Of a stretch of DNA of 34,882 nucleotides, positions 2,999-29,748 are shown one piece after another (the stretch's first letter is position 1; each line of letters begins with the position of its first letter). The notes under the pieces were generated by a model that did no database searches, had not been told where the DNA came from, and was given only the letters and a program-made list of their open reading frames with translations. The translations under genes and the position numbers were made by a program. Source of the DNA: Anaerolineae bacterium (GTDB lineage: Bacteria > Chloroflexota > Anaerolineae > Anaerolineales > Villigracilaceae); NCBI GenBank assembly GCA_022616105.1, contig JAKEFL010000150.1, forward strand, positions 1 to 34,882. Direction: 5' to 3'.

Positions 2999-3150
2999 CG
3001 TCATTGCGAGACCGAAGGGCGAAGCAACACCTGCACTCCCTGGCACTGTGCGGCTTAAGCCGTACCAGGGCAAGTGTGCGCCAGGTACAAGTGTCTCCAA
3101 CCTCGTAAGGGGATTGCTTCGTCAGCAAAGAACGCTTCCTCGCAATGACG
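2999..3150. repeat. MITE/REP-like palindromic element with 12-bp terminal inverted repeats
   Basis: cgtcattgcgag (2999-3010) is the perfect reverse complement of ctcgcaatgacg (3139-3150). Interior has CCTGG...CCAGG enclosing CGGCTTAAGCCG. Confidence 0.85.
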
Positions 3151-3174
3151 GACTGGTTACTGATTACTAATGCA

Positions 3175-4140
3175 ATGCCTCTGATCACTCTCTTCTCCGC
3201 TCCCAAACCTTTCACAGATCCACACATCGCGATGATTCAACGCAACGCGATCAAATCGTGGACTCTGCTCTCCGATGTCGAAGTCATTCTTCTCGGCGAA
3301 GAGACAGGTCTGGCTGAAGCCGCGCGGGAATTGGATGTGAAGCATATCCCGAATGTGACACGCAATACAAACGGCACGCCGCTTATTTCGTCCATGCTTC
3401 AACTCGCGCGCCAACACAGCAACAGTAACCTGCTCTGTATTATCAATGCGGACATGATTCTTATGCCCGATTTTGTTGAAGCCACACGTAGGTCACGTTT
3501 GTCGCGAAGCATCCCCGCAAGGGGGCAACGTGACAAATTTGTTCTCCTCAGCCAACGCTGGGATTTGGATATTACGGCCCCACTCGATTTCGTCGAAGGG
3601 TGGCAGCGCCAGCTTGAATCCACTGTCAGAACGCAGGGCCAGCTCCACCGTCCCGCGGGAAGCGATTTTTTCCTTTTCCCAAAATCCTGCTATCACAACA
3701 TCCCCGATTTTGCTATTGGCCGCGCGGGCTGGGACAACTGGATGATCTACAAAGCCCGCAAGGAAAAGTGGCCCGTCATTGACTGCACGCCGTCAGTCAT
3801 GATCGTGCATCAGAATCATGATTACAGTCACTTGCCTGGCGGAAAGCCGCATTACGAACACCCAGATACAAATGAGAACATTCGTCTCGCGGGTGGACAA
3901 GCTGCAGTTCGTTACACAATTTTGGATTCAACACATCAATTGACCGAAGGTAGTAAGATCGTGCGCCCGAAGATGTCCTATCTGCGCTTTATGCGTAAGG
4001 TGGAATTATTTCTGCGCGCTATTTTCTTTTTCCTGCCTGATGATATGATTGAAAACGTGGTTCGTCCAAAAAGATGGAAGAAGAGAATACAAAAAATATT
4101 CACAAACCGTAAATCCAAAATCATAAATCGCAAGTTGTAA
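3175..4140 (+). CDS. Putative glycosyltransferase (GT-A-like; DxD-type NADM)
   Basis: MPLITLFSAPKPF...NLLCIINADMILMPDF; start at 3175 preferred over 3145 because 3145 lies within the terminal repeat. Confidence 0.65.
   Translation: MPLITLFSAPKPFTDPHIAMIQRNAIKSWTLLSDVEVILLGEETGLAEAARELDVKHIPNVTRNTNGTPLISSMLQLARQHSNSNLLCIINADMILMPDFVEATRRSRLSRSIPARGQRDKFVLLSQRWDLDITAPLDFVEGWQRQLESTVRTQGQLHRPAGSDFFLFPKSCYHNIPDFAIGRAGWDNWMIYKARKEKWPVIDCTPSVMIVHQNHDYSHLPGGKPHYEHPDTNENIRLAGGQAAVRYTILDSTHQLTEGSKIVRPKMSYLRFMRKVELFLRAIFFFLPDDMIENVVRPKRWKKRIQKIFTNRKSKIINRKL
3489..3535. repeat. In-frame palindromic insertion in the glycosyltransferase ORF
   Basis: gtcacgtt (3492-3499) / aacgtgac (3527-3534) inverted repeat enclosing gcgaagcatccccgcaaggggg; encodes RRSRLSRSIPARGQRD. 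Confidence 0.75.
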
Positions 4141-28866: not shown

Positions 28867-29748
28867 ATGACGTACCCACGGATTTCAAAAAAACCAGAGG
28901 GACAACCGACTCGCGGGAAGACTGCTTCGAATCGACTCCGCCGCGTCGACAACTTCATCCTGCTCTATGAGCCCTCGCTTCTCACACGGACTGATGGCTT
29001 GTTCGCCGATTCGATGTTCGTTGACCTGGGCTACGGCTTCGACGCGCGGACCACGCTCGAGAGCGCGACGCGTTTCAGGCGCGTGAATCCTGATTTGCGG
29101 GTATTGGGCGTTGACATAGATAAAGAACGTGTGGAAACTGCATTGCCTTTTACAAATGAAAAGACCTTTTTTCGTCTGGGCGGATTCAATCTGCCATTGC
29201 AGGAAGGTGAGCACGTCCGCTTGATTCGTGCATTCAACGTTTTGCGCCAATACGAAGAAAAAGATTTTGTGCCTGCCTATGATAGACTTGCTCAACATGT
29301 TCTCCCCGGTGGATTGATGATCGAAGGGACATCGAATCCGTTTGGGAGCATTTGGGTTGCGAATGTGATAAGAAGGACTTTGGAGTCTGACAGCTTGCTG
29401 TCAGGAAACCAGAAGCAAGCTTCTGGACTCCAAAATTGGAGAATTGAGGCATTAGTCTTCAGCACGAATTTCCGAACAGGATTTGATGTGGAAGAATTTC
29501 AAACAATTCTGCCAAAAAACCTGATCCACCATGTGGTAAAAGGCGAACCGATTTACGATTTCTTTGAAGCGTGGAAGCAATGCGCTGCGGAGACGTCTCC
29601 GATGAAAACTTACGGCACAAGGCAATGGTTTATTGCTGCCGCTGAACGAATGGCAGAGCAAGGATATGCTGTTGCATCCCAGCGGAAATGGCTGTCAAAA
29701 GGATTCTTAATCTGGAAGTTGAATGACAGGAACAAATTCCAGGAATGA
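28867..29748 (+). CDS. Class I SAM-dependent methyltransferase-like protein
   Basis: MFVDLGYGFDARTTLESATRFRRVNPDLRVLGVDIDKERV, HVLPGGLMIEGTSNPFG. Confidence 0.72.
   Translation: MTYPRISKKPEGQPTRGKTASNRLRRVDNFILLYEPSLLTRTDGLFADSMFVDLGYGFDARTTLESATRFRRVNPDLRVLGVDIDKERVETALPFTNEKTFFRLGGFNLPLQEGEHVRLIRAFNVLRQYEEKDFVPAYDRLAQHVLPGGLMIEGTSNPFGSIWVANVIRRTLESDSLLSGNQKQASGLQNWRIEALVFSTNFRTGFDVEEFQTILPKNLIHHVVKGEPIYDFFEAWKQCAAETSPMKTYGTRQWFIAAAERMAEQGYAVASQRKWLSKGFLIWKLNDRNKFQE
29379..29434. repeat. Three-way-junction palindromic element inside the methyltransferase ORF
   Basis: tttggagt[ctgacag-cttg-ctgtcag]gaaa[ccagaag-caag-cttctgg]actccaaa; outer 8-bp stem plus two 7-bp hairpins. Confidence 0.92.

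Follow-up and report, generated by a model that had tools for sequence, protein, structure and literature searches.

A 56-bp palindrome inside a methyltransferase-like gene of an Anaerolineae bacterium is probably a REPIN-like mobile element of a family linked to RAYT genes in related genomes

The window analysed here, a stretch of 34,882 nucleotides from an Anaerolineae genome, carries a 56-bp Y-shaped palindrome within a methyltransferase-like gene. This palindrome belongs to a dispersed family of elements with covarying stems, it is an in-frame insertion relative to orthologs of its host gene, and elements of the same family bracket RAYT genes in relatives. We consider it very probable that the window copy is a REPIN-like non-autonomous mobile element, likely mobilised by a RAYT, that landed in frame in this gene. 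We call it REPIN-like because the same elements flank RAYT genes in related genomes; its mode of movement and its present mobility we infer.

Results

The element reads TTTGGAGT CTGACAG-CTTG-CTGTCAG GAAA CCAGAAG-CAAG-CTTCTGG ACTCCAAA (Table 1). An earlier note, made from the letters alone, had described a 56-nt unit that stays in frame, with an 8-bp outer stem around two hairpins of 7 bp each, one looped by CTTG and the other by CAAG; the sequence confirms the stems and loops, and the open frame TLESDSLLSGNQKQASGLQN confirms the rest. DNA folding likewise agrees with the three-way junction proposed there, which is the minimum for the 76-nt stretch as single-stranded DNA at -16.7 kcal/mol (mean of shuffles -8.1, z = -3.7, with 1 of 200 shuffles equally good). 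A long hairpin joining both halves (the centroid) has nearly the same energy, as one would expect of halves that are inverted copies of each other. With RNA energy parameters, too, stable hairpins form. In each unit TYT-GGAG-T precedes a hairpin of 7 bp whose tip is GCTTGC, and two units stand inverted around a short spacer. Nearly all copies have TYTGGAGT or something close to it as their head, and not the GTAG or GT(A/G)G of REPIN/REP-RAYT systems. Since the element is an inverted doublet, hairpin 2 is hairpin 1 reversed and the loops are complementary; kissing loops or a special loop complementarity were rejected, as inverted symmetry accounts for the match.

Table 1. Positions in the window of the palindromic element, its parts and its host gene
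Feature	Positions	Strand	Basis
Host gene: methyltransferase-like protein, 293 aa, with in-frame insert TLESDSLLSGNQKQASGLQN	28867..29748	+	ORF
56-bp Y-shaped palindromic element (inverted doublet of the GGAGT-hairpin unit)	29379..29434		DNA fold, covariance model, dispersed copies
Left outer arm TTTGGAGT, head of REP-like unit 1	29379..29386	+	sequence; near-invariant over 164 pooled element ends
Hairpin 1, 7-bp stem, loop CTTG	29387..29404	+	sequence, fold, covariation
Spacer GAAA between the two units	29405..29408	+	sequence; length and sequence vary among copies
Hairpin 2 (inverted unit 2), 7-bp stem, loop CAAG	29409..29426	+	sequence, fold, covariation
Right outer arm ACTCCAAA, pairs with 29379-29386, head of inverted unit 2	29427..29434	+	sequence, covariation

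Copies of the unit elsewhere in the source genome (G000, 88% complete), for which the earlier note had advised a search, are numerous. A plain DNA search with the 76-nt query finds eight further places at E < 0.001, the best at E = 2.4e-11, and about 27-29 distinct places match a covariance model. The element is not a product of chance because other copies match at E values down to 2e-11 and the model recovers this many places. The model was built from six copies, two of these in both orientations. As the element is almost identical to its reverse complement, each place usually scores on the two strands alike. The window copy receives 77.5 bits on the plus strand and 72.6 on the minus strand, scores that are partly circular because the model includes it; the 2.4e-11 DNA match is free of this circularity. 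By model and pattern searches, the only means by which copies were located, the source genome holds about 22 full copies and several degenerate or half copies; the palindrome occurs there some 25 times. Standard copies span 51-59 bp, longer ones with an enlarged hairpin or spacer reach 83 bp, and in a few cases half units stand alone. Among 60 relatives, 19 have model matches in a patchy pattern, with tens of copies in some congeners and zero in others; G001, G006, G016 and G092 each carry tens of copies (about 47 in G092). A phylum sample of 301 genomes yielded only eight with matches at E < 1e-6, seven of them in the source genome's own taxonomic family. On one G001 contig (L107, G001:C89, about 1435-1555) two near-identical elements stand in tandem before an oxidoreductase-like ORF.

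The stems covary across copies. Among 61 copies of standard length, the six central pairs of the hairpins are of Watson-Crick type in 57-61; shuffled data reach about 22-31. This contrast is to be read with the caveat that the copies are related and shuffles overstate their independence. The hairpin-base pairs and outer pair 7 exceed all shuffles, outer pair 2 lies above the shuffled mean yet within the shuffled range, and at individual pairs three or four Watson-Crick types are seen. The family thus combines many dispersed copies with inverted doublets, a spacer, hairpins and compensatory change, as REPINs do.

RAYT proteins, the REP-associated tyrosine transposases, are HUH single-strand endonucleases. 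A RAYT in G006 was noticed through its flanking GGAGT-headed hairpins and was used as a query across 120 relatives, where the flanks of matches were then inspected. Elements at C21:37976-38029 and 38600-38660 of G092 bracket a RAYT at 38096-38569, and G055, G075 and G059 each have one model match within about 80 nt of a RAYT, so that RAYT genes are flanked by the same units in all four genomes, in G092 on both sides. The RAYTs of G092, G055, G075 and G006 score above the NCBIfam REP_Tyr_transpos cut-off. In G075 the element upstream of the RAYT (L250, G075:C15:64-118) has an open frame continuing into the RAYT ORF. These RAYT genes, together with the dispersal, the covarying stems and the empty ortholog sites, support the earlier suggestion of a cruciform-forming, REP/RAYT-like mobile repeat.

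The source genome itself gave a divided answer to the suggestion that a RAYT be sought there. It has a RAYT-like gene (L186, G000:C300:5628-5960 plus flanks), which forms a separate REP-RAYT unit flanked by GTAG-tagged hairpins GTCACGT...ACGTGAC at 1383-1401 and 1972-1990, but no cognate RAYT was found among its eight Y1 loci (best model match 11 bits, E 0.31), none of which is bracketed by the element. Nor was a cognate RAYT found in the incomplete assemblies of the element-rich G001, G016 and G018. The presence of a Y1_Tnp gene (PF01797) as such was discarded as an explanation; it occurs in 56 of 60 relatives with no obvious match to element content.

The host protein matches Pfam methyltransferase profiles below cut-off only. 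Orthologs occur in 24 of the 60 relatives and most are without the insert, including the distant ones and many close ones; some congeners have other extra sequence at the same place. The net gain is 45 nt (15 codons) over the common ortholog length, less than the 56 nt of the element, and therefore some host sequence has been replaced or lost. The copy is an in-frame coding insert, apparently tolerated and presumably neutral for the protein. Of the earlier view that this is not ordinary coding sequence, the mobile repeat stands, but the segment is also coding. Conservation at the protein level with stems broken by synonymous changes would have spoken against mobility; the opposite was found, the segment being absent from most orthologs.

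Other copies behave similarly. In-frame inserts relative to empty sites in congeners occur in purB, secA, a zinc alcohol dehydrogenase (Zn-ADH) gene, a glycosyltransferase (GT2) gene and a heparinase-like gene, and several inserts, that in the methyltransferase-like gene included, replace some host codons and are not pure additions. In alignments with solved adenylosuccinate lyases, the purB product matches along its length except for a gap at the insert. REPs are extragenic by definition; here 55 of 87 copies from 12 genomes lie inside long ORFs by a lenient ORF rule, with host genes confirmed by Pfam for nine. All three element frames are stop-free in about 80% of copies, and intragenic copies use them 34/16/4 times (p = 6e-6), or 27/13/4 after orthologous sites recognised by eye are dropped (p = 1.7e-4). 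The favoured frame encodes LESDSLLS...QAxxLQ and the rare one a peptide with Trp and Cys, a bias that may reflect selection against poorly tolerated peptides. Element length modulo 3 did not differ significantly between copies inside and outside ORFs (p = 0.16). Flanking preference is mild (A at -2 in 60%, C or T at -1), and an empty site that is clean and has near-matching flanks was not found: flanks of about 89-98% identity lead into different sequence at the site. A precise target site read from G001 against G006 was rejected for this reason, the slot being occupied by other sequence.

Different palindromes occupy the same slots in different species. The Zn-ADH slot holds the element in the source species and in G016, a doublet of the sister CTCCCG class in G006 (L154, G006:C42) and a hairpin of a third class in G008; about 24 nt of the G006 doublet are identical to the REP beside that genome's own RAYT (L243, G006:C129). 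The slot in a CYTH-domain gene holds the element in the source species and in G001 (L101, G001:C87) and a AGACCTCCGAGGTCT palindrome in G006 (L285, G006:C111); the surroundings of the site are about 89% identical between G006 and G001. Similar exchanges are seen at the purB and methyltransferase slots, some involving only weak palindromes by folding. These may be hot slots visited repeatedly or old inserts that were overwritten, and the data agree with both.

Elsewhere in the window, positions 1491-1567 of a glycosyltransferase-like ORF hold a heptamer-like tandem repeat (AAATCGT, 28-bp period) encoding NRKSPIVNRQSKIVNRKS, and the ORF at 3145-4140 ends with a peptide similar to NRKSPIVNRQSKIVNRKS.

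Discussion

How the family spreads can be sketched from its build. We envision that two inverted REP-like units with a short spacer fold into a Y as single-stranded DNA and that the recognised form would be the single-stranded hairpin, with RAYTs of the clade present in related genomes as the likely mobiliser. The window copy would have landed in a linker of the methyltransferase-like gene that tolerates changes of length, and, with the reading frame kept, it may have been retained as a protein-neutral net insert of roughly 15 residues. The copies in the source genome are probably now orphaned.

A different account, which we judge unlikely, is that the element is a selfish repeat like the Rickettsia palindromic elements (RPEs), spreading independently of RAYTs, for example by ectopic gene conversion or template switching, with RAYT proximity secondary. 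RPEs do offer parallels in their in-frame insertion in conserved genes, their occupancy of orthologous sites and the presence of different families at one site (PMC3767692), and no cognate RAYT was found in the element-rich G000, G001, G016 and G018. However, elements bracket or adjoin RAYTs in four genomes, against a background of a handful to about 47 copies per 2-4 Mb genome, the unit architecture is of the REP/REPIN type, and the intragenic doublet of G006 matches the REP of the resident RAYT. We give very little credence to the idea that template switching during replication corrects quasi-palindromes, so that covariation would reflect mutation and not selection on a mobile form. Where two species carry elements at one site, both arms have changed together, and template switching is described as homogenising the arms of inverted repeats (PMC8604942), but dispersal, shared heads, shared loop sequence and RAYT linkage would be left unexplained; as an added process it is compatible with RAYT-driven movement. 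That the stems were kept as a regulatory mRNA structure whose function explains their conservation is similarly improbable: the hairpins are stable with RNA energy parameters, but the genes that hold copies are unrelated, the copies sit at internal positions and in three frames, most orthologs lack them, and mobility alone explains the shared structure.

We hypothesize, tentatively and with somewhat less than even confidence, that the same insertion-tolerant protein loops serve several independent RAYT-linked REP families as landing sites and that these families replace one another at the same codon position across species. In that case the in-frame palindromes of RPE type and the REPINs moved by RAYTs would be a single phenomenon, one that steadily supplies this lineage with new stretches of protein. 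In its REPIN-like build, its linkage to RAYTs in relatives and its mostly intragenic location, the present family connects REPs with RPE-type in-frame palindromes, for which the literature surveyed names no established mobiliser. The G006 dehydrogenase doublet, matching the REP of its resident RAYT, makes RAYT insertion of repeats into coding sequence testable.

The kind of element is already known, since REPINs, intragenic REP dimers and RPE in-frame inserts have been described; a literature search on double-hairpin elements returned nothing useful. REPINs consist of two REPs in inverted orientation, show compensatory changes and are linked to RAYTs (PMC3116915); the present family resembles those of Pseudomonas fluorescens in its inverted doublet and spacer, its compensatory changes, its tens of copies or more per genome and, in relatives, its bracketing of RAYT genes. 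It differs in its head (TYTGGAGT, not GTAG/GTGG), in a spacer of only about 4-5 nt in standard copies, in its mostly intragenic location and in a source genome without a detected cognate RAYT. The GTAG REP of that genome's own RAYT-like gene (GTAG GTCACG...), whose tagged hairpins flank the gene, also differs from the element in sequence. Some Pseudomonas REPs combine a GGAG head with a AGCTTGCT core (GTAGGAGCCAGCTTGCTGGCGAA), as here (PMC2817692). Intragenic GTAG/CGTC REP dimers inserted in ORFs encode 20-30 amino acids, and GTAG repeats have been reported in Chloroflexi (PMC3733652); the present family differs from these in its GGAGT tag and in sharing its intragenic sites with other palindrome families in congeners. 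RPEs are palindromes in frame in conserved protein genes, with different groups at orthologous sites across species (PMC3767692), and the in-frame insertion of the present element inside conserved protein genes is alike; compared by description, RPEs differ in measuring 100-150 bp and in belonging to Rickettsia and Wolbachia, against copies of 51-59 and up to 83 bp here. What is new is the GGAGT tag, the lineage (Anaerolineae-type Chloroflexota) and the mainly intragenic location, together with the presence of different palindrome families, some of them RAYT-linked, in the same protein loop of different congeners.
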